This document shows positions 29,501 through 51,124 of a stretch of DNA of 64,000 nt, piece by piece. Each line of letters opens with the position of its first letter. Positions within the stretch are counted from its first letter, which is position 1. Under the pieces are notes generated by a model. That model was given only the letters and a program-made list of their open reading frames with translations. It did no database searches and had not been told where the DNA came from. A program made the translations under genes and the position numbers. The stretch spans positions 620,001 through 684,000 of the forward strand of contig JAMXDE010000023.1 of NCBI GenBank assembly GCA_026770025.1. The letters are read 5' to 3'. The stretch is from Craspedostauros australis. Its lineage: Eukaryota; Bacillariophyta; Bacillariophyceae; Mastogloiales; Achnanthaceae.

Positions 29501-32500
29501 TGGAGATCCTTTTGAGAGTCCGGGTGTTATGCCGCCACCCAATTCACGAAGCGCCATGACTGCGATACGATATGCCTGATGGGGCTCACTTATCCAAGTC
29601 AATGTGGGGCTTGGGAGAGTGTCGTCGCCACATGCACCATGATGTTGTTGGGGGAAATATTCACTCGCGGCGCAGTGTAGATCTCCGCAGCTTCCGGCGT
29701 AAGCACGCAGTTCCAAATCACGGAATGACCCCAAGTGACAGATGCTGATCGTCAACTGGGTTCGTTCCGCTAGGTTCATTACTTCATACCAAAGTGCATC
29801 AATGGTGGGGAGTCTCCGACGGTAGAAGGCTCCAGAACATCCTTCTGTCACACTTGTCTTGAGAACGCTGCTGGAAATCTGAATTGGTTCGTCGCCCAAT
29901 TTCAATCCTATCGCTCCGTCGCACTGATCATTCGGCACAGCTTCATCGACCGTTAATATAAAGGAGCCTTCTTCGCCTGCGGTACCATGCACAATCAAAT
30001 GGTACGTCACGTCAGCTTTGGAATCAAATTCAACATACCCTTGTTCGAAGGTGCTGCCGTAGAGACCTTGAAATGGACAGGAGCCAAAGTTCTGGTTCAG
30101 TCTGCAGTTCAGTGAGCCGCAGACGTCGCCTTCGAGCACAAGAATCCTCGATCTATACCTTGTGAAGGTGCTGCATGTGGAAGCAATGAGCCGTTTGCCA
30201 TTGCCGACAACTTTTAACCATGTTGCTGCACCTGTGGTCTCGAATCCACCACAATATGAACCAAATGCCTGCGCGGCGTAACTAGTGTCCTGAGTGATTG
30301 ATTCTCCAATTTTGATTGATTCTGCATCATGGCACCGTTTGTCGTATGCACCTTTGTCTGATTTGGTGGTTGACAATATGAATTCGCCTTGTCCGCCGAG
30401 TGCACTGTGGATGAGAATGAAGTACCGTCGGTTTCGTTGTGCGAACCACCCCGTTTCGCTTTGGAATACGCAGCGATCGCTCGCTCTATTATTTCCAGTG
30501 ACGCATTCCAACGAATTGCAGTCATTTCCCCTGAGAATCGTAATTTGGTTGTCGAACAGCCGGAAGGTCGTCTCATTAGGTAAAGGTGGCGGAGCTGGGA
30601 GATCAAGCCGGAGCGAGGCATCATACTCGTGTGGTGTCATATCGAGAGATTTGCATGTATCCACATCGATGTATGAGTCATCTCCGACCACTGTGTACCA
30701 CACACCCGGAGATACCACTCCGGATGCAAGGCCACAGCCTGATGTGAACTCAGTTGGGATGGTTGCTTCCATCGTTGATGCATGGATGGAGATGTTGCCT
30801 CCTACATCCAGAGGAACAGCCGCCTCACACAAGTCATTGCGCACTGCCGACTGGATCGAGAAGGCGAATTCGGGGCTTGATGAAGGACCGGCATCCGTCG
30901 TTGTGTCGATGTTGGTGCTTGTGTCTGCACTCGGGTTGTTTGGCGCAATGCCATTCGTCCCTCCTTTGCTGAGAATTTCCTTGGATGAGACGTGCACGAA
31001 GTACGTCTCATCGAGGTTGGATTGCCACGCAACTTCGTTGAAGTTTGAGTCGCTGTCGAACTCCGCATCAGTTTCGTGGGGGGACTTGCATCCTCGGTTG
31101 AATACGGTCTCCACACCATCGAGGCACCTCAGGTTGTCGCACGATCCCTTGAAGACCTGCGCTTTGACAGATTGGAATGGAATCTCATCATCGCCAGAGT
31201 TCATGCCACCATCGCCGAAGTTATCATCCAGACAAGTGGAGACCTTCATCAACGATCCTGTTCCATTCACTGCATACCACGTGCCCTTCCTAGCCACCAC
31301 ATCCTGCACGCTGGATAGCTCGCAAGACGGTGTGTCGTCGCTGGCCGCGTTGCGATGGGAAGCATACAGTTTGCGGAACGAGAATGATGACAACCCATCG
31401 ATCGACTGCGCTTTGTGACAGATGTCATTGTCAGCCGTTTGGCGAATCGACAGTTGATAGTCGACATTCTCAGGGTCAATTGTGGATGCAGAAGTAGAGA
31501 TTGCTGCAGGTGCTGATGCTGATGACGACGATCTCAGTCCGTTGCGCTTGCTACCAGTTTCGGCGCTACCGTTGGTACTGGTACTGGATGTGGATAATCC
31601 GTCAGCAGGGTTCCAATCGGGATGGTCAGCAGGAGGAGCAGAAATGGCGAGGAAATACTCTTCATCATCCTCTGAATACCACGTCACCTGATTGCGAGAT
31701 CCACACGAGACGCTGTTCGTCTCCGTGGCACATTGCAAACTGCCGCAATCCCCCCTGAACACAGTGATGTAAGCTGGGGCGTTGCCTTGGACGGAACTTG
31801 GGTTGGCGTTGCTACTGCTCGTACTGCTGCCACTGCCACTGTCGTTGCCACTACCGTTGTCGATGCAAGTGGATGCAGTCACAATGCCCGACACGTTCGT
31901 CTTCACTGAGTACCACGTGGCAACTCCAGACTTCACACCGCAAGAGGCCAACGATGTGTCTGCCGGTGTCGCATATTCGTATGACCCTGTCACGACAACA
32001 GCTGGCTTGATGGATGGCATCGATGTTTCGGACTCTGATGTGGTGGTCAGGATGACATCGAGAGGCCTCGCGATCTCGCATCTATCGTTTGACGCGATGA
32101 GTTGGGATCGTATGGTGTAATCGAATGGCTCCATTCCGCCAATCGCAACAGTCACAGATTCTCTCTTCGCTGCCGGAATGACCAACGCGCATTGTCTTGT
32201 TGTACAGTTGCCGAACGCTATCGCACAACCGAGATCGTCGCAGCTTGCTCCATCGAAGGCGACCATCCATGTTGCGAGCGAAGAATCCGACGCCATTTTG
32301 ATGTTGATGGCTTCGCCACCGCCGTTGGCATAAGTTTCAAGCCCATCAATTGCTATCCATGAATGATATCCGGTCCAGGACTCTTGCTCGCCGCAACCGA
32401 TTGTGGTTTGCGTCATGTTGCGCGATGCTCCACCAGATGTCTGAGATGACGTGGCCGTTGGAGATTTCTCACGCACAAGATCAACCGCCTCTCCGTCAAC

Positions 32501-34588
32501 GCCCACCGCGACAGATCCTTCGCATGTCAGGCTTGTGAGGAAGGTTGTTGCGGGGGAGGCTGGAGACTGGGTGGGAGTTGGTCCTGCCCCACGGCCTCCT
32601 GCATCTGAGGAATCATCATCTTCGCATTGGTTCATCTCGGGAAAGAGCGAACAAGCGCTTGTGAGCATGACAATACCAACGATGATCGAAAGGACAATAC
32701 ACGCGCACAGGGCTGTCAATCCAGACGAACATTTCCGATCACCGCTAGGATCTCTGTTCTTATCAGTGTCACCGTTCGCGAGGTCGTCGGTCAAACTGTT
32801 TTCCATTTCACGCGGTTGGCCTGCTTCAGCGTCATCATATCGAATGATGTTGCCATCGGCATCAACGATCTCGCGTTCCATCTCTTCAGCAAGGACAGGT
32901 TCGCCGAGGGAAGGATCCACCACGTTGATAATTCTGTTGCCTCTTGGTGTTCGCGGACCCTCTCTGCTTCGTTCTTGCCCCACTGTCGGTTGACCAGAGA
33001 CACGGGCAGAGCGAGCGCTGAGGATGCCACCATCGATTTCGTTCGATGGTGTGCTGTCTCCTTCGTGTGTCTGGCTCTCGTCTTCTGTTCCAGAAGTCGA
33101 TAGATCGTCAACCAACTCGCCCTGCGCCGTGTATAGACCGTTGTGCGCGGACGGGTCGTATTCCTGTGCACCTGCGGCTTGGCGAATGGCCACGTGCTCA
33201 CCGCCTTGCTGTTGCGCAAGCAATAGTTCTCCTGGGACCAGTGCCCCTCCCGATGCAGCCATTGCGCTAGATCGCTGACCGACTGAACTGGACCCGGTGG
33301 ACCAATCATCGTCATGGCTGCGGAGTCGCGGCAGTCGCGAAGTTTGCTGCCGACCACCCTCCAACTCGTCGTCGTAGATCTGGGGCCCGACCGCGGCATC
33401 GTCGGCGCCACGCTTTTGTGCGATGGCGTCGGACCTGCCATATGCGTGAAAGGAAGAACTCAGATTGTTGATAGAGCCAGCAACGCTGTCGTCATTCTGC
33501 GCCTCTCCCTTACCGCTGGTCTCATGTGCTTGTTGGCTTGCCAGCCCTTCTGTTGAAGCCGTGGCTGCGTTGCTACTGCCGTTGTTGCTGCTGGCAGTGC
33601 TGCTACTGTTGCCGTTCTTGCTGTTGCCGCCTCCCTGCTTGCTGTTGCTGTTGCCGTTGCCATCGTCCCTCATCCAAGAGTCTGGCGAAATCAGGGATTG
33701 AGATGCAACGGAACGCAGATCGTCTTGATCTGAAGACGGGCGTCTGCCGTCGTTGCCTTGCGCGGTGTTTCCGCCTGCTCCAATGTCACCAATTTGCGTG
33801 ACTGCGATATTGCCATCGTCTTCAAGTATCTTCGTTCTCGGCCGCCGGCCGCTCGCTGTGCTCATGCTGTACCTGCTGGTTTTCTCGTCCTTCTCGTTCT
33901 TCTCAATGTCAACGTCCTGTCTGACGGAGCGGTGACTGATGGAGCGGTGACCAATGGAGTGGTGGTCGTGAAATCGGAACCTGCGACGGCGATTGAGATG
34001 TTCGCTTCCGCCTGCGCTATGTCCGGTCAGCCTTTGAGTCGGCCCCGAGGCCTCATGATCCGAGGCGCTGTGTCCCAGAGTAGTGGCGGTTTCCTTGATG
34101 CGCACACTGCGGCGAGAATTGCTTCGCTGGATAGGCCTGCCGCTGTCGCTTCCGCTGCCAGATTGGCGTTGGCAGTGGTCGCCACTGGGGATGTCTCCAT
34201 CGCTTTCCACAGCGTCATCTGTGACCGCGCTGGTTTCGTCTTTGTCGCTGCTCGTGCGTCTGACTTCGTTGTCACTGCTATTATCGTCGCTACCGCTGCC
34301 GTTGTTGTTGTTGTTGTTGTTGGTACTATTGTTGCTAGTTCGACGCTCTTCATCGTGTGACTGCAAGTCGTGGGGCAAGTCGTCAATCTCGCCGAAGCTT
34401 GCAACATCACTGTCCACGACGTCGCTCACAGAGTCTTCAGCGCCTACCTGTCTGGCAGCATCTCCATGCTCGTGCGAGTCACTGACATGTTCTGTCTCTT
34501 CGTTGTTGTTGCTGTTGTTGTTGTTGCTGCCGCCGTTGTTGCTACTGTTGTCACCATCAATCCCACCGCTTCGTTCGGAAGAACTCAT
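26558..34588 (-). CDS. Giant single-pass membrane protein with about twelve cysteine-rich ectodomain repeats
   Basis: One uninterrupted 2,676-codon frame ends in TAG. Residues 1 to about 615 are low-complexity, rich in Ser/Asn/Asp/Gly, with no signal peptide. One hydrophobic helix follows (CACIVLSIIVGIVMLTSAC, about 620-640). The remaining 2,000 residues consist of about twelve related units of 150-190 residues. Each begins with a D-x-C-x-x-A segment (NDRCEIARPL, NDLCEAAVPL, NDQCDGAIGL, NDHCENAIPL), then a WY strand (ATWYSV, GAWYTVVGDG), an ASTC block, a C-x-x-L-x-C pair (DCGSLQC, ACGALSC in type) and a W-x-SE...Y strand. This resembles repeated beta-sandwich units of the bacterial pre-peptidase C-terminal type. 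Lack of a signal peptide suggests a type II protein, N-terminus inside and repeats outside. It may act in adhesion or as a receptor; no enzyme domain is visible. Confidence 0.85.
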   Translation of the reverse strand: MSSSERSGGIDGDNSSNNGGSNNNNSNNNEETEHVSDSHEHGDAARQVGAEDSVSDVVDSDVASFGEIDDLPHDLQSHDEERRTSNNSTNNNNNNNGSGSDDNSSDNEVRRTSSDKDETSAVTDDAVESDGDIPSGDHCQRQSGSGSDSGRPIQRSNSRRSVRIKETATTLGHSASDHEASGPTQRLTGHSAGGSEHLNRRRRFRFHDHHSIGHRSISHRSVRQDVDIEKNEKDEKTSRYSMSTASGRRPRTKILEDDGNIAVTQIGDIGAGGNTAQGNDGRRPSSDQDDLRSVASQSLISPDSWMRDDGNGNSNSKQGGGNSKNGNSSSTASSNNGSSNAATASTEGLASQQAHETSGKGEAQNDDSVAGSINNLSSSFHAYGRSDAIAQKRGADDAAVGPQIYDDELEGGRQQTSRLPRLRSHDDDWSTGSSSVGQRSSAMAASGGALVPGELLLAQQQGGEHVAIRQAAGAQEYDPSAHNGLYTAQGELVDDLSTSGTEDESQTHEGDSTPSNEIDGGILSARSARVSGQPTVGQERSREGPRTPRGNRIINVVDPSLGEPVLAEEMEREIVDADGNIIRYDDAEAGQPREMENSLTDDLANGDTDKNRDPSGDRKCSSGLTALCACIVLSIIVGIVMLTSACSLFPEMNQCEDDDSSDAGGRGAGPTPTQSPASPATTFLTSLTCEGSVAVGVDGEAVDLVREKSPTATSSQTSGGASRNMTQTTIGCGEQESWTGYHSWIAIDGLETYANGGGEAINIKMASDSSLATWMVAFDGASCDDLGCAIAFGNCTTRQCALVIPAAKRESVTVAIGGMEPFDYTIRSQLIASNDRCEIARPLDVILTTTSESETSMPSIKPAVVVTGSYEYATPADTSLASCGVKSGVATWYSVKTNVSGIVTASTCIDNGSGNDSGSGSSTSSSNANPSSVQGNAPAYITVFRGDCGSLQCATETNSVSCGSRNQVTWYSEDDEEYFLAISAPPADHPDWNPADGLSTSSTSTNGSAETGSKRNGLRSSSSASAPAAISTSASTIDPENVDYQLSIRQTADNDICHKAQSIDGLSSFSFRKLYASHRNAASDDTPSCELSSVQDVVARKGTWYAVNGTGSLMKVSTCLDDNFGDGGMNSGDDEIPFQSVKAQVFKGSCDNLRCLDGVETVFNRGCKSPHETDAEFDSDSNFNEVAWQSNLDETYFVHVSSKEILSKGGTNGIAPNNPSADTSTNIDTTTDAGPSSSPEFAFSIQSAVRNDLCEAAVPLDVGGNISIHASTMEATIPTEFTSGCGLASGVVSPGVWYTVVGDDSYIDVDTCKSLDMTPHEYDASLRLDLPAPPPLPNETTFRLFDNQITILRGNDCNSLECVTGNNRASDRCVFQSETGWFAQRNRRYFILIHSALGGQGEFILSTTKSDKGAYDKRCHDAESIKIGESITQDTSYAAQAFGSYCGGFETTGAATWLKVVGNGKRLIASTCSTFTRYRSRILVLEGDVCGSLNCRLNQNFGSCPFQGLYGSTFEQGYVEFDSKADVTYHLIVHGTAGEEGSFILTVDEAVPNDQCDGAIGLKLGDEPIQISSSVLKTSVTEGCSGAFYRRRLPTIDALWYEVMNLAERTQLTISICHLGSFRDLELRAYAGSCGDLHCAASEYFPQQHHGACGDDTLPSPTLTWISEPHQAYRIAVMALRELGGGITPGLSKGSPTFNISVSSHTLDNNTVCDEAEFIGVGESINGSFKRAALDEDVMDCYVQEDFSFQRRNVDLVGSWYYTIGTGRQMIASSCLDQIHTRPTIVIVTGGKCGNLTCIDSSTHFCGVNGQVSWESETGTMYRVWIGTEGFFTSNYSLHVADSSSTSSTPPPLSPLAVPSATSTSNPWKAWIDVDFPAYDECEHAVTLEVSTDTSDITTDVLLSMTLVTNDYHVDMCGSAYPQLVGGAWFHVHGMGKLVKMTVNTIKPSDDYQAFGEEFTRDARFVVYQAQQEPAGASSDCESLRCVHGNSQGGDWSQHTFATWFAEDGVDYYIQVYNVYPSIAARLTLIEHTQAGAACGYNVVDGMPTNVIEKGDTVLSVTRRGSPQSEVVPTICDGQDGIPHNNGAWFSFIGDGKRVRASTSNPGSNANMTIQVYSYDGDSCDMLECVAATYHEDIIGFKFNGIGYTVMGHQDVDWTTAQGQRYSLFVQATGDGADGDDAIQHVFELSTTELRSVDTCDGARPARVGRLIKFIFESELGPDTTGSQCDDPLADWWNFPGAWYTVVGDGTTMVASTCAERPSPSGLSTQVSVYSGTCGALSCVGSSDVYCDRNGQVAWSSEAGTTYYVLIRHPKWFARQTDGTYLRSAPQASSTCSGIATAPLELRDEMTFVVPASNPTFTSMPVEPNVSDEQEEQMASVVPSCDFKFKTSSSNVAWLSVIGSGGYMMVSTRGFDTRFNSTVEVYSGRDCNQLSCVDGAVQSRARGWLSKDGDMTFHHVIANGPPIHQGSLSWQSAFGEEYFIRISGVGTNESAGSTAASTATGTAEKDAGDSAMDNTALAGSLVSVKVEANVANDHCENAIPLYDRDEVFVDMSTATIDDIDLCHSPRYPNVNSTLLTHAAVWYKILASELQRMDSGMRITACSPIPGTQIGVFVGDDCDSLRCLQTVAAFGVTNCVEHELPADSDEDVYLLLMGGTSSAQINVRVRQLYLWDV

Positions 34589-35000
34589 CCTAGCTGCTTC
34601 GTGCTGTTCCTTGAATCGGTTCTTGCACCTTGCACAGTGATCGATCCTGTGTTGGGTGGCTGCTGATCAGTCTTTGACTCTCAGCTCTCTATTGCATTGC
34701 CTGCAGGCCCTGCCGACGACTACAAGCACGACCACGACTTCGAGTGCGCCTCCTTGGGTCTTACAATTTGTGTTTGGTTGTCTCACTGTCGCCTCGTCTC
34801 GCCTCGTTTGCAAGGGAGATGCGCATGAGTGTAGTGCGATACTCGATGATGTGCGCATGGTCGGTTCGTGTTTTTGGCGCCTTGCGCAGAATTGGCGGTT
34901 TTGGTGTCAACATTCGCGTTGTCGACCGCATCTGGCGGTTCCGCTACCAGAGGTGTGGAGAGAAATCTCCAAAACAGAGAAGTCCCCAGAATTGCCTGTA
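34589..35000. promoter_or_regulatory. Upstream region of the giant repeat gene
   Basis: This 412-bp stretch lies between the start of the minus-strand giant gene and the left end of the mariner-like element, so the promoter is here or has been separated from more distal sequence by the insertion. TA at 34999-35000 is the left copy of the element's target duplication. No defined factor site is visible. Confidence 0.45.
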
Positions 35001-35050
35001 CGACCTCCAGGTCGCAGTTGATGCACTCACGATAACACTAGTTGTGGAGT
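35001..35050 (+). repeat. Left terminal inverted repeat of the mariner-like element
   Basis: It starts CGACCTCCAGGTCGCAG and ends TTGTGGAGT, and matches the reverse complement of 44596-44645 at 49 of 50 positions. Its outer part contains a small palindrome (GACCTCCAGGTC). Confidence 0.92.
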
Positions 35051-37215
35051 GTTTTTTGAGTTTTACTCGTGATGAGTCGTGATAAAGTAGACTAAATTAG
35101 AGCACACCCAAAACCATCCAAACAACTGCTTATGATGTTATATCTCAACAACGCACCATTTAAAATTAAAACTAGACAGTTCATTCGGACGCTTGGCTAT
35201 CGTTTATTCTGAATATCTTAGTTAAATTTGTATGAACTTTATTTTTAATGTCGTTTTGGCTTGCTGTCTGTCAGGTGGTGGGTGCAAAAAATTCTCGATG
35301 GCACCATGCTGCCCTACCTTCAGCACCCATGATCATCATTATCATCCCTGGCATTTTCACAATCTGCGCACCACACTGGCTCCGGATACCCCCCATCTAT
35401 CCACTCCATGAAGATCCTGCGCAGATAGCCGCATCTCATACTCCAAACTGTCCCTGCACTGAAACGCAGAATTTTCGAACACCCGATTCCGACACGGATG
35501 CCGTTCGGATTTGGATCCGTATCTCGTCGATACGATCCTTGCAGCTCCTTCACATGCCCCTCATGCGTTCCCACATTCTCTGGCGACACACTGATGTGTT
35601 CAGAATGGGTGGGGCGCTCATACCTCCAAAGGTGCACCTCCATGTGATGATGCCATCATGATGTTTTTCCGACACCCAAAAAAATCCCTTTCGTGTGCAT
35701 CCCAGGCTGCAGCCTCTTCCAGACCGTATCTGCGCAGGATACTTCGCCATGGCCATCTTGAGTTGATTTCTAACACATCTTGAATGGGTGGTTTGGCGAT
35801 ATGGGTGACTTTTCAATGGCACCCATCACCAGCGAAGTCACGTGATGTGTCCGCCGCCACCCGCCAAAAAACTCTTGCCCGCCACTTGTTTCTTGCGGAG
35901 GGCACCTTCCAGGCCACCCCCGACCCTCAAACTTCGTGTGCATCTTCACCGTATCCTCTTGGATACGTCTTGCCCATCCATGGTCGTTGGAATGGCCTGT
36001 GCATTCCAGGCAGAGACCATATCCAATGAGCATATTTTCCTCCGAATCGTGCCGTGTGCGCGTGGGCCTGCCACGGCCCCAAATAAGCCAAGATGACATC
36101 CCGCTCTCGCTCATCCACCAAACTTTCCATGGCGGTTCCGCCTATGCCCTCAGATCTTGCACTGGACCGCTGGTTGTGGCAGTGCCGTCGATGCCATTCG
36201 ACAGCGCTTGTGGAGTTTTGTTGTGTTTCTCCATTGTCGTGTTGTTGTGTTGTGTTTGGTGTTCTCAAACAGTTTTTGCTGTTGGGGGCCATGGAGATTA
36301 ATCACAATTCTACCAAATGCGCCCATCAATGAGAACACTTTGCGAGTCCCGAATTGCACCTCCATTCCACAACGACACAGCGAAGGCACAAAATCCTCCT
36401 CACAAAATGGACAACGGAAACATTGCGCATCTGCGACGAGCTGCTGTTGATTCTCTGCTGCTTGTAGTCATAGCTTACACAGAATGTAGAATGACTGTGA
36501 CCTTCCCACAAAGGAAAGAGTGGATGGTACAAGGCACCTTGTGACCATCCTCCTGTGTTGTTCATGCCGTTCTGTGGTGCGCTGCGCCGTGCTGCGCGTC
36601 AATGACTGGTGCTGTGCTGTGCTGTGCTGTTCTCCTTGTGTGCCTGGTGTGCGTCGCGACCAGCCAATCTCGTACAATCAGCTTGCAACCTCTATTGACA
36701 CACAGCTAGTATTCACCATGAGTTCCCTTGTTGTTAGACCATGTGTGCTGAATCAATCCAATCGTTGTTCGAGTTTTGAGTCCTTTGTGTCAGTCACACT
36801 TCGATTCGAAAGATCCAAGAAAACTACTCGATAGAATTCGGAAAATGTGATGCGGGTTTCAGACCCAAGACAAAATTAGGAAGATGATCCAAGAGGATCA
36901 AAGAGACTCTATTAGACCTCCAAACATGTGTCATTGCACATGTTTGGACACAGATACACTAATTAGCAAGAGTAACCAGAAGTTTGGCATGGTTACAACA
37001 CGATGGACAATGGTGAATAGCACCATTAGTGGAGCCAAGAAGTAGAAAACAGGAAGATGATGAGCTCTTATTGATGAGCTCATAATCTCAACAAACTTAA
37101 CTTTGTAAACCATCACTTCAAACAAGCACACACAATAACACAGTTCTATCAACCTTCACCAACATTGGACGTAGTTGTATCATCCCGCAACCACTGAACT
37201 CTTCACCTCGCAAGC
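35051..37215. other. Left internal region of the mariner-like element
   Basis: There is no supported gene before the transposase. A 13-bp motif ATCCTGCGCAGAT occurs in inverted orientation near 35415 and 35729, inside weakly similar flanks, which suggests an old inverted duplication. Minus-strand frames between 35320 and 36292 read somewhat like a decayed protein (for example LAYLGPWQAHAHTARFGGK) but switch frame repeatedly and match no family I know. A GCTGT run lies near 36608-36630. Two GATGAGCTC copies lie at about 37055-37081. Confidence 0.45.
36920..36947. repeat. Perfect 11-bp inverted repeat upstream of the transposase
   Basis: CCAAACATGTG and CACATGTTTGG are separated by TCATTG and would form a hairpin with a six-base loop. 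It lies about 270 bp before the transposase start. It could be a transposase or regulator binding site, or a stem in the leader RNA; nothing more can be said. Confidence 0.8.
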
Positions 37216-39762
37216 ATGCTGCGCGCTGGTGACTGTGTGAAGGTGGCATCCCACCAGAGCTCAAGCGGCAGGGTCCATGACCTGGGCGTATGTCATGTTG
37301 ATTTTGCAATGAAGCAGACCACGGACGGCGCTACAGTCAAACGCAATGGGCCTCTTGCACCAGGAGAGGTGGCAATGGTCATGGTGACCCCAGTGATGGG
37401 GCAGAGCCGAATGTATGTTGTTCGCGAGGATCTGTGCACACCACACAGCCTCGCTACCTTCGCACGGACTCGCACTGCTGGAGGCCTTGCTAAGCCTTCC
37501 CTCCTTTCTCCCCAGCATCACTCCGTCGCTGCCACGCGTGTCAACAACAAGGCTAAGCCCCCCACACCATCCCCAACTACCACAGAATCGCAAGAAGCCA
37601 AAATCGCCGCTTTTCTCGAGGTCTCGCGGCGTCAGAAAGCAACAGCAATCGCCCAGCTCACGAACCAGATGAAGAAAGGCGCGAAAACAAAAGGATGGTT
37701 GCGAAAGGATGGAGGGCATAGTATTGCTAAGCCTGGTAATCCTAGCAAGCGCCTTGACAAAGAAGACAATCGGAACTACACTGTTCTCTATTTCAATTTG
37801 GGTGGGATTCCTGAACATGCAGAGTTGATCGCCCATGCATGGGGTATCAACCGCACCACAGTGGGGCGCAACATTGTGAAATTCCAAACGGAGACGCTCG
37901 AATGCAAGAAGCGAAGTGACGCAGGCAGCAGCATCTTCACCTGCCCCATCAAGCAACGACAGTACTTCACGCAGCGCGCAGCCTTTGAGAAACAACTACG
38001 TCTTCGACATCCAGAGCAACAGTTCAAGAACGACGAAATTGCTTCTGCCTATGCCTCTGCTTCGCCGGAAGAGCTGGCATCCGCAAAAGCGCTGGCTGAT
38101 TTGTGGTTGGAGCGTGGTCCCTTCCTGCAATTTGAGCTCCAGGATGTGTTGCGACGGTGCAATGGCGCAATCTCGTGGGACAGAATTGCATGGAAACTGG
38201 CAGGCAGCGGAAACCCGCAAGTCGTTGGTCCGAAGTGTATTCGCAAATTCGTCATGGGATTGGAAGGCAGTGAGTACCGTTCTACAACAATACTCCCTCT
38301 GATCAATGGCACCACTACAGCAAAGCGCGACATCTGGGCTCAGGACTTCTGTGTGTTCTGGGAATCAGCTGAGCTGTTTGAGAATACGCAAGTTGTCCTT
38401 GTCCACATGGACGAAAAGTGGTTCTACTCCATTGTCGCTCGCATGCATCTGAAACATGTGCCCCAGATGGGAGTTAAGCCTGTGAAGCAGACTGTGCATC
38501 ACAAGTGTCACATTGACAAGACCATGGCAATTGCATCAACAGCATTTGCCCCAACAAATAACTGTTTTGCGAAAGGAGGAAAGGCGTATAAGGTGAACTT
38601 CGAACGTGTTGGGCGCATGGTCCGAGCGCAGAAGACCACGTACAAGCGAACTTGGGTCTCGCTGACCAAGTACAAGCACCTTCCTGATCCCGAGAAAATC
38701 TCTCGCAAGAAGGGTGAACTGTACTTCCAACCACTGGAAATCACGGGCAGCAAGGAAACAGATGGTCATCGTGTTAAGCCCAAGCCGAAGTACAGCCTCA
38801 AGAAATTCTTCCGCGAAAAAGAACTCCCCGCACTGGATTCGCTCGCCAGCAAAATCAAGGCCGAAACCGGAAAGAACGTGGTGATTCGGTACCAGATGGA
38901 TGGCGCAGGGCCACACAGAGACACGGAGCTACTTAGATTCATCAACAAGGAGTTCGACAGTCGCGGATGGCACTTACGACTGCAACCACCAAATTCTCCC
39001 ATCACGAATGTGAAAGACGATGCGATATTCCCAGCGATGTCAAAACACGTGTCAGCATATCAAGGTGAGCACCATGGAAGCCGATTGCTTACCACTGAGG
39101 CATTGTGGAATGCTTGTGGAACCTGTTGGAAACAATTCAAGCTGGACAAGGTGGCTAGCGCGTATGTTCGCCACCATCAGATTGCCTACGCAATTTGTGC
39201 TGCAAAAGGAGGTGACGAATTTGTGACGGAGCGCAAGGGACTGCACATGAATGTGCGGAAACAAACGTCCACGGAATTCGACAAAGAGGGCAACAAGATC
39301 GGCGTTACCGTGTCTCACACGGACTTCGTGTTGGAGGAGGATGAGGCTACCCGCGCGACCACCAACAAACCAACTGCAACAGACAACAAAGGCAAATCAG
39401 CTGACTTCAAATACGCCAAGCCCGACATCAAAGGTATGTACGATGATGCGCTCAAGGTGATGGCTGTCAGTGGACTGCAGTGCCTGAAAACGAATCTGCC
39501 AACAACCAGCAGCCTCATTCCGTTGCTGGAGAAGCAAATCGTTGCGACAACCAGAGCCAACGAGGAGGCTGAGCAACAGAAGAAAGACGAGAAGAGAAAG
39601 AAGCAACCCAGCAAGAGCAAAGCCGACATCATTGAGCCTTGCAACAACAACAGCAAAGCCAAAGCAGCACCCACCATGAACACATTCGAAGTGGCCATGT
39701 TCGTTGGCAAGGACGAGCATCACAGCAAAGCAGAGCAGGATACCAACACAGCAGAGATGTAG
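37216..39762 (+). CDS. Mariner-like DDD transposase
   Basis: The intact 848-residue frame ends in TAG. A helix-turn-helix-like segment lies near 202-222 (ELIAHAWGINRTTVGRNIVKF region). The catalytic core has VHMDEKWFYS with Asp399, the HxDEKWF hallmark of Tc1/mariner enzymes; YQMDGAGPH with Asp562; and LQPPNSPITNVKDDAIF with Asp601/602. The second-to-third spacing is 38-39 residues, which fits the DD39D mariner-like group first described in plants. The enzyme cuts and joins DNA at the terminal inverted repeats. It is roughly twice the usual size: a long N-terminal part (1-150, Ala/Thr/Gln-rich) and a Lys-rich C-terminal tail (KKDEKRKKQPSKSK, a likely nuclear signal) are extra. The frame is unbroken and all three acidic residues are present, so it may be functional. 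Confidence 0.88.
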   Translation: MLRAGDCVKVASHQSSSGRVHDLGVCHVDFAMKQTTDGATVKRNGPLAPGEVAMVMVTPVMGQSRMYVVREDLCTPHSLATFARTRTAGGLAKPSLLSPQHHSVAATRVNNKAKPPTPSPTTTESQEAKIAAFLEVSRRQKATAIAQLTNQMKKGAKTKGWLRKDGGHSIAKPGNPSKRLDKEDNRNYTVLYFNLGGIPEHAELIAHAWGINRTTVGRNIVKFQTETLECKKRSDAGSSIFTCPIKQRQYFTQRAAFEKQLRLRHPEQQFKNDEIASAYASASPEELASAKALADLWLERGPFLQFELQDVLRRCNGAISWDRIAWKLAGSGNPQVVGPKCIRKFVMGLEGSEYRSTTILPLINGTTTAKRDIWAQDFCVFWESAELFENTQVVLVHMDEKWFYSIVARMHLKHVPQMGVKPVKQTVHHKCHIDKTMAIASTAFAPTNNCFAKGGKAYKVNFERVGRMVRAQKTTYKRTWVSLTKYKHLPDPEKISRKKGELYFQPLEITGSKETDGHRVKPKPKYSLKKFFREKELPALDSLASKIKAETGKNVVIRYQMDGAGPHRDTELLRFINKEFDSRGWHLRLQPPNSPITNVKDDAIFPAMSKHVSAYQGEHHGSRLLTTEALWNACGTCWKQFKLDKVASAYVRHHQIAYAICAAKGGDEFVTERKGLHMNVRKQTSTEFDKEGNKIGVTVSHTDFVLEEDEATRATTNKPTATDNKGKSADFKYAKPDIKGMYDDALKVMAVSGLQCLKTNLPTTSSLIPLLEKQIVATTRANEEAEQQKKDEKRKKQPSKSKADIIEPCNNNSKAKAAPTMNTFEVAMFVGKDEHHSKAEQDTNTAEM

Positions 39763-39857
39763 CTGCAAATCAAAGTAGTAGTATTATATGTTATAGGCAC
39801 ACCTGTGATTGGAGTGCCTGTGTGCACATCGTCTGTTTGATGGCATGGAGGATTGTG

Positions 39858-39991
39858 ATGTGTGATGTGTGGTGTGTGGTGTGGTGTGTGGTGTGGTGTG
39901 TGGTGTGGTGTGGTGTGGTGTGGTGTGGTGTGGTGTGGTGTGGTGTGGTGTGGTGTGGTGTGGTGTGGTGTGGTGTGGTGTGGTGTGGTGT
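39858..39991. repeat. (GGTGT)n pentanucleotide tract
   Basis: About 130 bp are built almost wholly from GGTGT units, near-perfect from about 39895. It starts roughly 95 bp after the transposase stop. The strands are strongly asymmetric in G and C. Read on the minus strand it gives a His/Thr/Pro repeat, but this is a by-product of the repeat and not a protein. Confidence 0.95.
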
Positions 39992-41168
39992 GTGATGTTT
40001 GTTTTGTGTTTTGTGACGAGTGGTGTGAATTGTGTGACGCGGACCGTATTTTTGTGTCGTGAATGGTGTGCGTCGTGGAGCCATCGCGTCGTGGAGCCGG
40101 CACGTTGTGTTGTGCCGTTCTGGTCGGAAAATTTCCATCCGAACCACACACAAAAACGCTCCAAGGCCTCAACTGCGTCGATCGGAGCGCCAGCACAATC
40201 GGTGTGTGTCGCACAAACCAATCGAATGGCAAAGCCTCCTCTTGGTTGGTACCGCACTCGTACATCTGTACCACATCGTGCCATGCCAGTATTCCGCTTT
40301 CTCTTCATCACACATGTGCAACCCTCGCGATCGTTGCTGCCATCAAGTCCAAGCGTCTGTACTCGTCACTGGAGCACCAACGATGCATCCTCTGATCATT
40401 CATCTCTGCTCGTGCCCTGCCGACGGCGCTGCCACTAGCACAATCGTCATGTATTGGTAGAGTAGAGTAGAGTAGAGTAGAGCGCAACGAATCCACACCA
40501 TACCATGCTCATATGCTATACTATGCTATGTTGTGATGTGCTAGTGCAGCTCCTATAATATGTTACATTCGATGAGCTATTCCGTCGTCTGCGTGCTGAA
40601 GACGAACACGCAGGATGCCCCCTTCTGCAGATACAGACGTTCTGGGTAACCAAACGTGGCATCACCGAGTCTTCGTTTTAGTTCGCACATAACGTTTCCT
40701 CGCTGAGCTGGCCTCGAACAAGACAAGTTTAGAATACTCGACGAGTTGTACGACAAGAACGCAAGTGCACTCGTATGGATGTCTGGACGGAGTGGTTGAA
40801 ACTGTAGTCAAGTTGTGTGGTTCATCTTCGGATATGCTCCCTTGAAGTCATGGGCAAAGGTACCATATCATGCTATACTAGCACATGGAAGTACGAGAAT
40901 GCACAACTGGCAAGGCGCAGCACAGTACAGGATGCAAACGATTGTTCCATGACTGTATTGTAACATGTATTCTATTCTTCGATCATCGTGCCATATGCAA
41001 CGATGGAGTTGAGTTGAGCCATTCGTTCTGAATATGGATCGCATCCATGCTGTCTTGCCGCTGCGGAAGATGCGACCGTATGAGCATGGGCGTACATGTG
41101 GATACGTTGTGATGTTTGTACTCCCACTCCTGTTCGCGCCCTGAGAGTGCGGTCAGCCATTTCATTTT
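39992..41168. other. Internal region between transposase and passenger gene
   Basis: There is no supported gene here. A TAGAG pentanucleotide repeat of five units lies at about 40458-40482. ATGCTATACTA-type short repeats lie near 40505-40535 and 40865-40885. The passenger gene's reading register continues past its stop (41169-41171) to about 40983 as noncoding-looking sequence. Confidence 0.4.
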
Positions 41169-43891
41169 TCAAGAGCATGCATCGTTATTTTGTCCAGGGC
41201 AGTCGTTGGATGGGCTGTCGATGGTGTAGGTCCAGCCAGGAGAGCCACTGCACATGTCTGTCGCCATGCAGTCCTGACAGTTGCTTGGAGCCGCGCAGGT
41301 GTTCGCCGCCACGACCAGATCATCAACCGCCAAGTTGGAGTTTGCAACACCGTTACAGCTGTCTTGTGACAAGCATGTGCCACTGCCGATGGTGATACAA
41401 CCGAGAGTCTTGAACGGGTCAGCGTGAACATTCTGACTAGCGCGTTGTCCCTCACAAGCGTTCATCCCCACGTCGATGTTGGCAAGCGTAGGTGTGGCGA
41501 TACTGGGAGACTGGTCGGCGCAAATTCCAAGGCCTTTGCAGCCGTCCCCGCCATTTCATCCTGCGTGTTGGGTCCAGATGTTACCATAGATGTTCTGCCC
41601 AAGATTCTCGCAGCTGTTTGTGCTGGTTCATGCGGCTGGCCCGATGATCTGGTAGCCAATGGTGGCCGTGGCACTGGGAGGGCTGGAAAAAGATCCAAGA
41701 TTCTTGCAGGATTTTGGTCCCAGACAGCTGCTGAGGATGATGGCATCCTTCGAAACCTCTTCGCAGGAACTATCACTTGCACATGAGTCCAGGGTGATGA
41801 TGATGTCGCCCCTGAGAGTCCAACCGAGAGTTCCTCAGCGGCAGGCCCCGCCCACAGCACCGCATCTCGTGGATAGGCTTGCGGCGTTCGCAGTGAGAAG
41901 GATGCCATCGCCTTCGAGAGCAGTGAGGATGGCTGCGATTGCTTGGGGGTCATTCTTGATGCGATCAAATCGTACCTGCGCCTGTTGCTGCGACGTCCGG
42001 CTGCCTTGGTCGTCATCGCATCCGAAGATGCTTTTCACGAACCTGTCCTTGTTCGTTGGGAGAGACTCGTTGTTGTTGACGAATTGTGCGCATGTGCCCA
42101 CATCATCATCGCAGAGGACGACTTGTCTGGAGGTGAAGCCCGCAGTAACCTCCCCAGCCTCATTCAAGCAAAGGGTCTGCAGGGTGGTCTTGTTGATGGT
42201 TGGGGAGTTTGTTGGAACAAAAGTTGACAGATCGGATGGCTGCTCTGTCGGAATCATCGTTGGGGTATCGCTTGCCAGCGGAGAAGGGGGCGAAAGTTGG
42301 GCAATCTGTTGGGCGTTGGTCTTTGTTGATGCAGAATTGATCGACCCTTTTCACTGGTTGGGTCGCCATCGACGTCTTTGGGGCAGGCGACGGCAGCATC
42401 GTAGATAATGAAGACTTCGTCGCTGTCGCAGTTGGTTTTTGTCATGCATTCGTAGCATGCGCCGCTGCTGTCACAGCCATAGTCTGGCACAATGATGTCA
42501 GTTGTCACTGAGTCACCGAATCCCAATCCCGGGCAAGCGTAGGCTGCGGCGCAGGCATTGTCGCCGATGCTCAAGCTGCCCTGAATCTTCGCAGGTGATG
42601 GCAACGATGTGCATGTGCAGTCGTAGTAACCGCTCGCATGTGCTGCGGTGCATGCATATTCACCAAGGCATGCGTTGAACCCAATTCTGACGTGGCTCTG
42701 GGAACGGCTGGGCCCGTACTGTTCAACGCGGTAGCCAACGCTCGCACAGGCGTAGGGTCCAACGCAGGCGCCGCTTTGTATGATGGCGTCTCTGTAGGAG
42801 TATGTGCCAGCAAGGACGCAGGAAAGATAATCAGTGCAGGCCAGTTGACCAATGAAGGTGACACCGTATGTTGGGTGAGGACCATAGCAATTGGAAACAT
42901 AAAGAGAGTTCATGCCGGCGCATACCCCTTTGCTGGTACAGGATGAAGCCAGGACCAATGTGTTTCGTCCCATCCTGTCGCAAGATCCAGACCCAATGCA
43001 GGCAGTGGTGGCAATGGTCATGAAACTGTAACCGTCGGCGCTGGTACAGTGATACTTCTCTGCACAGCTTGGAGCCCCAGCGTCCTGGCACATGTAGTAG
43101 ATGTCCTCGCCACCGAGAGCTGTGAGCAGAGTGGTGCCGGCGGCGGACAATAGCTTCAGCTCCTCAGCTAGCAAGGGGCTGGACGCATATCGGTTGAATA
43201 GCTTGTGCGCATCCCCCTCGGTCAAGAGGCCAGCGCATGCGAAGTAATTCTGCAATCCTGGTGTGCTTCGAACAGCAGTGACGGCCTCGCGGCACGATGT
43301 CTTGGATGGATTGCAGATGATGGTCTTTGGCTCGGATGCCTCCGGCAGAAAGCATGGCGGCGCAACATCTGGCTCGCAGGCCACGGAGATGCTGGAATCA
43401 AATGCAAACGAGATGGTTGTCGGTGCAGATGTAGGCCCTGATGTCGGCATGCTGGTTGCTCCGCCTGTTGGCTGGTCAGTCGGTGATGAGGTAGGCCTCA
43501 GGGTTGGATTGCTGGTCGGCAAGGCAACTGGCCGCCCAGTTGGCCTTGAAGTTGGTGCCCCAGTTGGTGGCAAGGTTGGTGTAGAAGTCGGTGTTGTCGT
43601 CATTATTCAGGCCAACGCAGTTGGTGCCAATGTAGGAGAGCTGGTAGGCGAACTGGTTGGTGCCACACTGGGATTGCTGCTTGGATTGTTGGACGGTGCT
43701 CCCGTCTGTTTGTTACCCTTGACGTTCTTTGGAATGAAACCGCCGTCGCCCTTCAGCAGTCTGGTTGCCTGCATCGCAACATGAAGTTCGTTGGTTGGGT
43801 CAATCAATCTATGGCCGCGAAGGATGGCATCGATCGTCTTGCATTTGGCGAGCAAGATCGCCGTGATGGTAACTGCCTTGAAGTTGAGCAT
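41169..43891 (-). pseudogene. Decayed gene for a secreted PT-rich, cysteine-repeat protein (passenger of the mariner-like element)
   Basis: From 43891 the sequence codes for a signal-like N-terminus (MLNFKAVTITAILLAKC), an RLLKGDGGF stretch and then PT repeats (SPTSSPTLAPT, PTGRP, PTSNP), typical of diatom secreted proteins. A body of about 400 residues follows (to about 42360) with repeated IG-x-x-x-C-x(5-7)-C units (IGSGSCDRMG, IGFNACLGEYAC, IGDNACAAAYAC). A second PT stretch (PTEQPSDLSTFVPTNSPT) and more cysteine units run to 41169. The body 42254-43603 is open without a break. Elsewhere the same protein continues across in-frame TGA codons at 43609-43607, 41837-41835 and 41558-41556, and changes register once near 42.3-42.4 kb. 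A 72-nt GT-AG intron could remove the first TGA; the others have no obvious intron. I read it as a host secreted-protein gene, carried inside the transposon and decaying. Confidence 0.6.
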
Positions 43892-44595
43892 CTTCGGTTT
43901 CCACGTGATCTTTGCTTGGTTGTGGTTTGCTGGAATGCTGTTTCTTTCCTCTCGAATTTGGACAAGCGGTTTACTATTGCTCGTATTTGCTTCGAGGCTC
44001 CTTCACACTCGTGGCTGGATCGGTACTTTCGGTTGTGTTGATGTCGTCCCTTGCGCCTTGGCGTTCATGCAGGAGGATCGTGCTGCACGGTTGCGCAGGA
44101 TGCATACCGTACCACGTTGATCATGTGCGCACCGCATGTTATCGGAGAAGAAAAATGGAAACAGCAACAGTGGCAAGAATGTGGATTGGCTGAGCTGTGC
44201 ATGCATCATTCACAGGATTGGCAGCCGAGGTGAAGACGATGTTGTGGTGATTGGCGAAGCACTGTCGTCTGCGTCGTACAGATTGCCAATGCGCTTCGTT
44301 GTATTCCGAGACGATTGGATGTTGCTGGTTTCCATTGTGAGACTGGTCAACGTGGAGTGTTGTTGGCTGTCCTGGCCTGGCACATTCTGTTGTCGCCGCG
44401 CGCAGTCATCATCTTGTCTTGCGGAGGAAGAGTCACACGATGTCTCTTCCTCTGTTGTGACTCGTTTCTCATGACGTGGAATACGTTCCCTGTGACGTAG
44501 AAGACGGATCAGCGAGAGCAAACACACAATAGCTCTAAATATCCAATCGCCGTTTCTCCCAAAAGCAAGCAAACCAGTGACAACAAGGGGCCAAA
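43892..44595. other. Right internal region of the mariner-like element
   Basis: This 704-bp stretch lies between the passenger gene's start and the right terminal repeat, and would contain that gene's promoter. The sequence just inside the right terminal repeat shows no similarity to that inside the left one. No gene is seen. Confidence 0.45.
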
Positions 44596-44645
44596 ACTCC
44601 ACAACTAGTGTTATCGTGAGTGCATCAACTGCGACCTGGAGGTAG
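44596..44645 (-). repeat. Right terminal inverted repeat of the mariner-like element
   Basis: It starts ACTCCACAACTAG and ends GCGACCTGGAGGTAG on the plus strand, the inverted partner of 35001-35050 with one difference. The dinucleotide TA follows at 44646-44647. Confidence 0.92.
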
Positions 44646-44722
44646 TACTTTTTACGAAGTCGCGCGTCACATTTCGATGTTGTGCGAGACGGTTCTGTTT
44701 GGGGTTGTATTTCATTCGCGTG

Positions 44723-44895
44723 CAAACAGGGATGCATGTGAAACGGTTAAAATGGGGTTAGCTTGCGAACACGGGCATCGCCCAACTACAGGAGAACAGT
44801 GTACTCTCTGACAATCCTACACGACCCTATAACCCTTATAATCTGAATCCTTTGGGTTTCCAACCCTCAATGACAATCCGTGTGTGTGTTAACTT
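44723..44895 (+). repeat. 5' LTR of the young copia element
   Basis: This 173-bp repeat is identical by eye to 50947-51119. GGTTTATCATCACGC follows directly; together with the last T of the LTR it gives TGGTTTATCA, a plausible tRNA primer-binding site. Confidence 0.93.
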
Positions 44896-45366
44896 GGTTT
44901 ATCATCACGCATCCGCTCACGCGGGCCATGCGCAAGCACGCGGGGACCGCCTGAAGAGGCGATGATAATACTGGGACCCCGCTCTGAGGGTGGACCGCCG
45001 TGAGCCGGCACAGCTTGGAATCGTGTTGCATCCCCTTTGACAATGATGCTCTGGTACATGTTGGCCGGTGCCAGAGGGATGTACTCCCACCGTTCGCTTT
45101 GGCGTGGTGTGGAGGGCAAGACAAGGTGGACGCACCGACCGCAGGCCACGCGGAACCCCTACTGAGACACGCGCTCCTACTGAGTGAAAGATCGTGTGCC
45201 TTGTTGCCACATCCGTGCTTCTCAATGTGGGTCGAAATACCGACACACACGCTTCGAAAACTCACACGACAAAACACGCTCTGTCCCAGCGAAGACTTCT
45301 GTCACAATCCAACGACTTGCTGCTTTTATTCCCCTTTTTGCATTCAACAATCATACGACAGCCAAC

Positions 45367-46848
45367 ATGTTGACCAACAGCGATGAGATCCGCAACTACC
45401 TTACCAACGTCATGGGTTTCACCAAGGCCGACATCGGTGAAGCACTCAGCGCGCAAGGACTGAACACCTTCGACGACCTTCTGATGTTCTCCGATAAAGA
45501 CTTGGAGAAGCTCTGTGGTCGTATCCGTAAGGGAAGCGGCCTCGTCGCCAATCCAGCTCAGACATCGGGCAACCGCTCTACTACGCCGGCACAAATCAAG
45601 GACCCTGGCATCACCATCGGATGGGTACACGAGCTGAAGCTTCGAAAGCTCCGCTATGTGCGCTTCCACTTCGATCGTATCCAACGCCCTTTCTCCGCTG
45701 CCGAAGCACCGATTGAGCGTCTCAACGCTCTCTGGTCCCTCTTTGAGGAGGAAGTGCGCGCGAAAGACGCCCCGTCGATGGACTTGCCCGACCCTCTCAC
45801 GCGCGTGGACAACGTCCGCAAGACCCTTGAGGATATCGCAAATTACCTCGAGAATACACTTGGAGCAAGTGATGCTCCACTATCATACATCATCCGTGAG
45901 AATCCACTCAAGCCGGAAGACCGGTCGCCAGCCGTCAACACTCCGTTCGGCGCCCCGTCCCTCAAGGAGGAGCTCATCGACCGAGCTACCCATATAGGCC
46001 TCAAACACAAAGCCGACAATGCAGCCGTATGGCAGGTCATCCGCCACGTGACTCACGGTGGTCCAGCATGGAACTGGGTGCAAGGCAATGAGCGATCCAG
46101 AGATGGACGCACTGCATACCTGACACTCCAAGAACATTACCGCGGTGACTCCTATCAAGTCCGAACCAAGGCAACCGCGACAGGCATCATCAACAACACC
46201 TTCTACGATGGCAAGTCACGCAACTTCACATTCGAAACATACACCCAACGCTTGAACTCTGCCTTCGAAGACATGGCTGCATGTGGTGAGCCGCTCGTCG
46301 AGGATGCCAAAGTCCGGCACTTGATGCATGGCATTCGTGTGCCACATTTGACCACCGCGTGTGACGCTATCATGCTCAACGAAAGCATCCGTACCAGCTT
46401 CCCCGCCACCGTGAACGCACTCAGCGAAGTGATCGGCCGTAAACAGGCATCGACCCCCACGCGTCAAATCTCGTCCATGGGACGTAACAACAACAGCGGC
46501 GGTCGAGGCGGCCACTACCAAGCCAACAAACCAGGACGTGGAGGCCAAGGACGAGCCAAACAGTACAACCCCAACATGGTCATCACTGACCGCCACTATC
46601 TCCCTGAGGAGTGGGCAGTCATGTCGTCCGCCCAAAAGGGACGCGCATTGGAGTTGCGCGGCGCACGTGACAAACGCCGCGGTGTGATGTCTGTTGGCCG
46701 AGGCAGTCCGGCGAAACGCACTCGTGAGGATACGGACGGCCATTATGGGCCTACAACTCCACCAAACCAGACCAACGGCACTGGTACCAATCAAACCGCC
46801 GGTATCGGTTCCATGATGTCTCGCCGTAACCAAAACAACCGTTCCTGA
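45367..46848 (+). CDS. gag of the young copia element
   Basis: It starts at ATG 45367 (MLTNSDEIRNYL), after a leader of about 470 nt, and codes for 493 residues. The first 60 residues resemble a small helical SAM-like domain (FTKADIGEALSAQGLNTFDD). The middle has the alpha-helical look of copia capsid proteins, with FYDGKSRNFTFETY and LMHGIRVPHL. The C-terminus has an RGG-type, Gly/Arg/Asn-rich stretch (GGRGGHYQANKPGRGGQG) where many copia gags have a CCHC zinc knuckle; I see no CCHC. It is virus-like coat protein coding sequence and part of the element above. Confidence 0.85.
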   Translation: MLTNSDEIRNYLTNVMGFTKADIGEALSAQGLNTFDDLLMFSDKDLEKLCGRIRKGSGLVANPAQTSGNRSTTPAQIKDPGITIGWVHELKLRKLRYVRFHFDRIQRPFSAAEAPIERLNALWSLFEEEVRAKDAPSMDLPDPLTRVDNVRKTLEDIANYLENTLGASDAPLSYIIRENPLKPEDRSPAVNTPFGAPSLKEELIDRATHIGLKHKADNAAVWQVIRHVTHGGPAWNWVQGNERSRDGRTAYLTLQEHYRGDSYQVRTKATATGIINNTFYDGKSRNFTFETYTQRLNSAFEDMAACGEPLVEDAKVRHLMHGIRVPHLTTACDAIMLNESIRTSFPATVNALSEVIGRKQASTPTRQISSMGRNNNSGGRGGHYQANKPGRGGQGRAKQYNPNMVITDRHYLPEEWAVMSSAQKGRALELRGARDKRRGVMSVGRGSPAKRTREDTDGHYGPTTPPNQTNGTGTNQTAGIGSMMSRRNQNNRS

Positions 46849-49800
46849 TCGCAGCATGGAGGGCATCGACAGATCACGTCTGTTAATCTCTCCCTGGCGT
46901 CTGATACGCCGCGAGCGGAGCTCGACTCACACGCTGACACATGTTGCTTTGGCGACACAGCATACATTGTGCACACCACGAACCAAACTGTGACTGCAAC
47001 CCCCTTTCTTGACTCACTCGGGAACATCGACAACGTGCCAATCGTCACGGCAGCGATAGCATATGATGATCCCGTAACATACCAAACATTTGTCCTTTTC
47101 TTCCCACAATCGATCTACTTTCCTCGTCTTGAGCACCCGTTATTGTGCCCGAATCAGATGCGAGCTGCTGGTGTTGTTATTAATGATGTTCCATTACTCA
47201 TGATCCATGAGGATGAACGGAAACCGGAGGATCACTCAGTGATCTCCTCCCTTAACAACCTCCACATCCCGCTCCGACTACGTGGTACCATATCGTACTT
47301 CCACACAAGAAAACCGACACGACAAGAAGTCCAATCCGACCATGATTGCATCCATGTCATGATGACACAGGAGTCCACCTGGGACCCAGCACACTGGTCG
47401 GCAGGGGACGACGAGGACGCCATCAGAACGACCGTCCCCACAACGCCAACATCCATGTCGCCAACCATATTACGCGACATCAAGGCAGTCAGCGGAACGC
47501 AGTCCTCCAACCGAAAGGGGACGATCACCCCAGAAGTACTGGCACGACGATGGCGCATCGGCGTTGATGCAGCAACACGAACGTTGCAGGCCACAACACA
47601 CCTGGCTATGCGCGACTTCCGCAATACCACAGGGACACGTCGACTCAATCCATATGCGATGCAACTACGCTACCGGCGTTTGAACACGCAGGTATATGCC
47701 GACACAATGCACGCGAAAACGAAATCAATCCGTGGCAACAAATGTGCGATGATATACTGCACACCATTCCACTGGGTTCGCGTCTATCCGATGACGGAAC
47801 GCAAGAACGCACACCTCACCCTTGACGAAATGTTTCGCGATCACGGTATCCCTCACACAATCATACCCGACAACGCGAAAGAGCTTGTGGCTGGCGAGTT
47901 CCGCCGCAAGTTGCACAAGGCGCAAGTGTCCATACGTCCGATCGAGGCGTACATACACAACCAAAACCGTGCGGAAGCAACCATCCGCGAGCTGCGTCGT
48001 CACTACCGACGACTGATGACATCCACGAATACGCCCGAATACCTTTGGGACTACTGTTTTGAGTACTGCGCGGAGATCCGAAGTCATACGGCGTTATCCG
48101 TATACGACCTGCATGGCGAGACGCCTGCTACCATCCTGTCTGGCGACACCGCCGACATCTCACACATTGCTGAATTTGCATGGTTTGACTTTGTCTGGTA
48201 CATCAACATACAGGATGCCTCCATGAACGTGAAGCAACTCGGACGCTATCTGGGACCAAGCCGTTCTGTCGGCGAGGCCATGTGCTCGTACATACTCACC
48301 GCCAATGGCGTCGTTGTTTCCAAATCCTCTGTCTTGCCTCTCTCACACGATGACACAAACGACGACGTACTCCAACAGAAACAAACCGACTTCATGACCA
48401 AACTCAGCACCAAATGGAACAAACGCATGGAAGGCATGGAACCAGACGACGACGGCGACGAAGTCGACGACACCGCTGCCGACATCGCCTACCTGCAGAA
48501 CACAGAACCATTGGAACCCATCGTCGAACCCGAAGACGTCGCCAGCGAAGTGTACGACCGGTATATAACAGCGAAGGTCGTCCTGCCGACAGGGGACGAG
48601 ATGCGATTCGGCACTGTGAAACGGAGGAAACGAGACGCAGATGGCAACCTCATCGGCCATTCGCATCACAACCCGATGCTCGACACATCACGCTACGAGG
48701 TTGAATTCCTCGATGGACATCAAGAGGCATTCAGTGCCAACCAGATCGCAGAAAACATCTATGCTCGTGTCGACGACGATGGATACGAGACCGTCCTCAT
48801 GGACAAGATCATCGACCACAAACGCTTACCCTCTGTCTCTTTTGCTTCTCACAAAACGAAATCCACGAAAGGATGGAAACTGTGCATACGTTGGAAAGAC
48901 GGCTCAACCTCATGGATACATCTGCGAGACGCGAAGGAGGCCGACCCCGTCCGTGTGGCTGAATACGCGGAAGCCAATCTCCTTGTCAACGAGCCAGCCT
49001 TCAAGTGGTGGGTGCCGCACACCCTCCGCAAGCGACAGCGCATCATCATGGCAACCAAACGGAGACAAGTACGCAAACAAGAGATGTTCGGTGTTGCGCT
49101 ACCAACCTCCGTACGACATGCGCTTGCCATCGATGCGGAATCGGGCACTGATATGTGGCGCAAAGCAATCGAGAAGGAGATGAAAGCCGTACGCCCTGCC
49201 TTCGACATCAAAGAGACCGACACTCCCAATCCCATTGGACATCAATACATGGAGTGTCACATGATCTTCGCAGTGAAGGTTGACCTCACACGAAAAGCGC
49301 GCTTGGTGGCTGGTGGCCACATGACAGAGGCACCAGCGGCCATCACCTATGCGAGTGTGGTGTCACGCGAGAGCGTGCGCATCGCATTCCTACTTGCCGC
49401 ACTCAACGACTGCAACATACTGGCAGCCGACGTCCAAAACGCATACCTGAACGCACCATGCAGAGAACGAATATACACGCGATGCGGACCCGAGTTCGGG
49501 TCCGACCAAGGCAAGATTGCCGTCATCTGTCGGGCCTTGTATGGCCTGAAATCCAGCGGAGCCGCTTGGCGCGCGCATCTGGCTGAGACACTGCGCGATT
49601 CGATGGGATACACATCCTGCCGCGCAGACAGCGACGTCTGGATGAAACCAGCTGTGGCGAGCGATGGGTCAGAGTATTATGAATACGTGCTTGTGTATAC
49701 AGACGACATCCTTGCGGTGTCCAAACAACCCCAGCGCATCCTAGATGCAATCGGCTCACACTTCTTCCTCAAACCGAGTTCCATCGGCCCTCCTACTACT

Positions 49801-51119: not shown

Positions 51120-51124
51120 GCGTG

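Follow-up and report, generated by a model that had tools for sequence, protein, structure and literature searches.

A probable 9.6-kb mariner-like element with a long transposase frame and a probably decayed passenger in the diatom Craspedostauros australis

Is the 9,645-bp stretch at positions 35001-44645 one mariner-like transposon, and does it carry a host gene for a secreted protein, as a preliminary description of the locus had suggested? We addressed this question in a window of Craspedostauros australis DNA, by which we mean the whole stretch of 64,000 nucleotides that was analyzed. The reading that we consider best, and probable, is a single element of the Tc1/mariner superfamily with a passenger that has probably decayed. 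Such an element would be about twice the usual size, with a seemingly intact transposase and a probable decayed secreted-protein gene enclosed between its ends. Its features along the window are as follows.

34999-35000, no strand: left TA (target-site duplication), read from the sequence
35001-35050, plus strand: left 50-bp terminal inverted repeat, starting CGACCTCCAGG
35051-37215: left interior, 2.2 kb, without recognizable coding sequence (Pfam, hexamer scores)
37216-39762, plus strand: intact 848-residue open reading frame, mariner-like transposase, D399-162-D562-38-D601
39763-41168: middle interior, with a simple repeat inside
41169-43891, minus strand: passenger frame, probably degenerate, with a signal-like start, a PT-rich linker and two Cys-repeat halves
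42356-43891, minus strand: passenger half A, 512 codons, one TGA
41169-42350, minus strand: passenger half B, 394 codons including the final stop, three internal TGA
43892-44595: right interior, in which the open reading frame listing gave no recognized coding sequence
44596-44645, minus strand: right 50-bp terminal inverted repeat, starting CTACCTCCAGG
44646-44647, no strand: right TA (target-site duplication), read from the sequence

The two terminal inverted repeats agree at 49 of 50 positions, with one mismatch. In a repeat search of 34500-45200, the arms extended to 56 nt (34998-35053 and 44593-44648, 96% complementary) and ranked first among the 11 inverted pairs listed. The left-end 49-mer had exactly two matches in the 64-kb window when up to three mismatches were allowed. 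These matches lie in opposite orientation with 0 and 1 mismatch, and two matches were reached in none of 100 dinucleotide shuffles. A uniform-base estimate puts the chance that 64 kb contain an inverted match at 49 of 50 positions at about 1e-18. TA directly adjoins both ends, and other target-duplication lengths do not fit the flanks, which were inspected by eye. The 50-bp repeats with one mismatch and a TA on either side, as first described, were thus borne out by the repeat search, the 49-mer search and the flanks. An end 22-mer, searched for exact matches only, had none in viral_contigs or genome_contigs.

Between these ends, the open reading frame at 37216-39762 comprises 848 open codons and closes with a TAG stop. 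The protein contains the motifs MDEKWFY (D399), HHKCHIDK, QMDGAGPH (D562) and QPPNSPITNVKD (D601), with 162 residues between D399 and D562 and 38 residues between D562 and D601. The second spacing lies within the approximately 30-40 residues of Tc1/mariner, the aspartates having been placed by motif and not by family alignment. The locus combines terminal inverted repeats, a TA duplication and DDD/E triad spacing, all three expected of Tc1/mariner elements. None of 20,000 shuffles reproduced the motif order DEKWF...D.A..H...PPNSP..NV.D, a pattern that was written after the protein had been inspected. We take this motif order to be that of a plant-type mariner. PlantMar proteins have the context QPPNSP..NV.D, as does the protein here. 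A literature search for the QPPNSP motif returned no result, and a degenerate QPPNSPD pattern found 10 stretches in viral_contigs, none resembling a transposase (frames judged by eye).

Profile and database searches were negative. Neither the complete transposase nor any of three fragments matched a Pfam family at E up to 10, and a PDB sequence search gave nothing significant, its sole hit being a chance match to a glutathione transferase (E 0.49). Relatives of the transposase were absent from the viral_contigs, genome_contigs and plasmids collections. Because neither Pfam, PDB nor these collections offered a match or a relative, membership in the mariner group rests on the motifs, their spacing, the TA and the ends. 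The intact DDD transposase of the preliminary description stands with respect to its 848 open codons and its triad; the label mariner-type comes from motifs alone, with no Pfam match.

Pairwise comparisons gave graded results. Local alignment to a PlantMar-like fragment scored 64, a value reached by 1 of 500 shuffles. A SETMAR fragment aligned where expected and scored 37, which 18 of 500 shuffles equaled or exceeded. A Mos1 fragment aligned off the expected site, and 448 of 500 shuffles did equally well or better. We also built two single-sequence AlphaFold2 models, of residues 180-700 and 385-660, with mean pLDDT of 38.7 and 38.5. In both of these low-confidence models, the first aspartate is placed at or just past the end of a strand, the second just past a strand and the third just before a helix; in the first model, helices are predicted to precede the first aspartate. 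The predicted order of strands and helix around D399, D562 and D601 is as in DDE enzymes and may be a hint, but only a hint, of an RNase-H-like core. Foldseek with the first model only (pLDDT 38.7) returned nothing at E up to 0.001.

The left interior contains five open reading frames (107-137 aa) that have no Pfam match at the curated cut-off and low hexamer scores. About 100 bp past the transposase stop, and still within the element, lies a TGTGG-type simple repeat (approximately 39862-39995).

On the minus strand, the passenger frame starts at 43891 with MLNFKAVTITAILLAKC, an N-terminus that by eye appears signal-like. In half A this start is followed by a PT-rich linker and then by a Cys-repeat region with frequent C-x5-C. 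Beyond a frameshift at about 42353 come a second PT stretch and a second Cys-repeat region, which extend to 41171. The Pfam family PT (PF04886) matches the passenger with E 1.2e-6, and the second Pfam hit, DUF7640, is below the cut-off (E 2.8 and 2.7). Halves A and B are homologs of each other: they align from residue 161 of A and residue 61 of B with a local score of 182, whereas the highest score among 300 shuffles was 69, and tblastn gives E 8e-12 and 3e-9. No further copy of the passenger was found in the 64-kb window, and one scan of viral_contigs with the 449-residue open reading frame, which is part of the passenger, returned no relative. This passenger open reading frame also had PDB matches to circumsporozoite fusion chains (residues 8-156; best E 1.1e-4 among the 10 listed). 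They begin in the PT-rich stretch, and we discarded them as low-complexity matches.

Read without splicing, the passenger path runs into TGA codons at 43609, 41837, 41630 and 41558 and the frameshift near 42353 before it ends at a final TGA at 41171. A TGA at 42353, which belongs to the second frame at the frameshift junction, was excluded from the count of four. As a result of the interruptions, the signal-like N-terminus and the 449-residue open reading frame are not in one open frame. Of the PT-rich, Cys-repeat gene that had been proposed on this strand, the frame, the Pfam PT match and the signal-like start hold up, but an uninterrupted gene does not, given the four TGA codons and the frameshift in the unspliced path.

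The counted internal stops are all TGA (4 of 4, no TAA or TAG), which is odd and incompletely explained. TGA 41630 and TGA 41558 align exactly with cysteines of half A. This pattern is the one expected from one-base decay of Cys codons, and it is best read as decay. Within the element, the left interior, the transposase and the passenger have CpG observed/expected ratios of 0.74-0.81, while the middle interior has 0.91 and the right interior 1.00. Elsewhere the ratio is 1.02-1.10 in two host stretches and a neighboring copia element, and 0.72 in the region 1-8000, which holds an apparent old copia. Decay through CpG loss is only hinted at by these values.

One may ask whether the passenger is instead a working gene, its TGA codons decoded as selenocysteine or cysteine or its interruptions spliced. 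The exclusive use of TGA and the coincidence of two stops with cysteines of the other half would fit such a gene. So would some candidate introns found with a chosen donor set and lengths of 50-200 nt, namely one for TGA 43609, two for TGA 41630 and four across the frameshift, where introns of 137 and 185 nt have lengths that would, by arithmetic, restore the frame. However, every intron tried leaves TGA 41837 and TGA 41558 in place. A set of introns that clears every interruption thus seems unlikely, with candidates for three of the five. TGA recoding was tested against the TGA ends of host frames, with a SECIS scan and with Rfam, and found no support. Three of the 10 host open reading frames listed end in TGA (one of them, at 21085, is probably an intron junction). 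No SECIS-like hairpin was detected in the 1.4 kb downstream by a crude scan that gave one in only 14 of 36 control stretches, and Rfam at E up to 10 gave no match; the element thus showed no Rfam RNA, and it showed no tRNA gene either. We therefore regard a working gene as very unlikely. With five interruptions in the unspliced frame, and with two or more of the stops not removable by the introns tried, a captured relic is likelier than a working cargo gene; the passenger is probably a relic, and the claim that the element carries a secreted-protein gene is weakened to that extent. A further reading is that the PT/Cys frame is resident cargo of the transposon lineage, present in most copies, and not a captured host gene. 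We know of no role in transposition for secreted PT/Cys-repeat proteins, which counts against this reading, and the five unspliced interruptions next to an open transposase argue against a function needed in the element. In favor of resident cargo, the rest of the window contains no relative of the passenger, and non-transposase proteins occur in other mariners (PMC3627910). On balance resident cargo seems to us quite unlikely.

The unity of the element can be questioned as well. The two ends could be separate insertions of the same family that lost their inner ends, in which case the 9.6 kb would be a locus-bound macrotransposon that never moved together. The TA does not distinguish one insertion from two, and joint mobilization of neighbors is the published Pack-Mariner/Pack-TYPE model (PMC8903248). 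Against this, the outer ends differ at merely one of 50 positions, and no remnant of an inner end was found. The best interior match to the terminal repeat has 25 of 50 positions, as compared with 24-26 in five mononucleotide shuffles, and because it resembles the shuffles an inner end is not detectable; the best matches outside the element have 26-28 of 50. Two insertions thus appear unlikely to us. It is less probable still, indeed highly improbable, that the transposase frame is nested in or unrelated to a unit whose 50-bp ends come from another superfamily. The transposase is 2.2 kb away from the left end and family membership was not reached by profiles, as such nesting would allow. However, there is no convincing second pair of terminal inverted repeats: the other 10 inverted pairs listed are at most 80% complementary, and the one that spans the whole transposase frame (35485-35507 and 42233-42255, 23 nt, 74%) is chance-like. 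In addition, the TA duplication, the end sequence and the catalytic motifs point to one superfamily.

Under the favored reading of a single element with a decayed passenger, the 848-residue transposase would bind the 50-bp ends and its RNase-H-like D399/D562/D601 center would cut there. Insertion would take place at TA by a cut-and-paste mechanism, and all DNA between the ends would travel along. Foreign DNA would have become enclosed in an earlier copy when two neighboring copies were mobilized jointly or when a gap was repaired faultily. This DNA was probably a host gene that encoded a PT-rich secreted protein with Cys repeats, and it would have decayed afterwards. Directly observed are the ends, the TA, the open transposase frame, the motif triad, and the two halves of the passenger with their interruptions. 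We infer that the two ends act together, by which route the gene was captured, that it came from the host and that its interruptions reflect decay as opposed to splicing; capture of a host gene by the element is plausible. With a single copy known, movement as a unit is a proposal.

How does this element compare with known ones? Tc1/mariner elements measure 1-5 kb, with transposases of 282-345 aa and terminal inverted repeats of 17-1100 bp (PMC2874221). Classical members such as Mos1 and Sleeping Beauty resemble it in the inferred TA cut-and-paste and the DDD/E enzyme, and the length of the terminal repeats here is ordinary. In contrast to their 1-5 kb and 282-345 aa, the present element has 9.6 kb and 848 aa, and the Mos1 fragment gave no above-chance score. 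From its motifs and end sequence, the element appears nearest to the PlantMar group of plants and a few oomycetes, which is described in PMC7325037 as DD39D elements of 2-6 kb with short terminal repeats. With PlantMar elements (Soymar, Ppmar, and the ends of Stowaway MITEs) it has in common the TA duplication, CTCCCTCCRT-like ends and the DDD triad. By eye and without a control, the Stowaway end consensus CTCCCTCCRT (PMC1925063) is matched at 8 of 10 positions by CTACCTCCAG at the right end and at 7 of 10 by CGACCTCCAG at the left end. Unlike PlantMar elements, it has 38 residues between the second and third aspartates (D601) and reaches their 39 only via the adjacent D602; its 9,645 bp lie outside the 2-6 kb range, its transposase has 848 aa and it has a second reading frame aboard.

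Passengers in mariners have already been published. For instance, PMC3627910 describes Fanzor1, endonucleases and methyltransferases in mariners that likewise combine a mariner transposase and extra proteins within terminal inverted repeats flanked by a TA duplication. Three such elements are named there, from virus genomes and with Fanzor1, endonuclease or methyltransferase cargo, whereas the cargo here is probably a decayed secreted-type protein. A rice Pack-Mariner family holds a gene piece, for which joint mobilization of neighboring insertions is the proposed route (PMC8903248). Like this Pack-TYPE family, the present element has mariner ends around what would be host coding DNA. Pack-TYPE elements are non-autonomous and, in the same source, the piece in rice cluster 217 measures 260-280 bp, as against an open transposase frame and a passenger of about 2.7 kb here. 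The earlier statement that mariners are 1-5 kb long and rarely have passengers agrees with the cited size range; passengers are less unprecedented than it implied (PMC3627910 and PMC8903248). Literature searches of partial coverage, judged by the titles and abstract openings listed, brought up no autonomous mariner-like element of 9-10 kb with a gene for a secreted protein. The element is an unusually large variant among passenger-bearing mariners, and its size, long DD38D enzyme and retained transposase are unusual. It is doubtful at present that it belongs to an undescribed lineage of giant autonomous mariners in stramenopile-type algae, a lineage whose long multi-domain DD38D transposases would repeatedly capture entire host genes encoding cell-surface or secreted proteins and carry them to new sites.

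If copies exist, the size range of mariners would be exceeded while the transposase stays apparently intact, and the family would provide a natural test of the maximum length at which a mariner-type element still moves. It would also offer a route for duplicating and scattering repeat-rich secreted-protein genes. With one copy known and a passenger that has probably decayed, the element is a well-defined lead and not yet a case of spread.

The surroundings contain other mobile DNA. A young Copia-type LTR retrotransposon (44723-51120), which inserted separately, lies 77 bp to the right of the mariner-like element. Its LTRs (44723-44896 and 50947-51120) are identical across 174 bp, and it is flanked by the 5-bp duplication GCGTG, the first base of which may be common to the LTR end. 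Its open reading frames occupy 45184-46848 and 46969-50775, the second corresponding to RVT_2. Farther away, a direct repeat (1380-1540 and 6832-6992, 88% identical) flanks open reading frame fragments at 3619-5599, which on inspection by eye resemble the remains of an old copia-type element; the fragment 3619-4527 has no significant Pfam match. To the left of the element, a minus-strand open reading frame (26558-34588) is uninterrupted for 2,676 residues, with the mariner-like insertion about 410 bp upstream of the start of the frame. Pfam, searched at E up to 10, gave no match for it, and by eye it has a single hydrophobic segment and recurring modules that contain Cys. The gene at 18146-23583 joins a nucleotide cyclase domain to a cyclic-nucleotide phosphodiesterase domain and is probably split by an intron at about 21020-21290, with GTGAGT near 21020.
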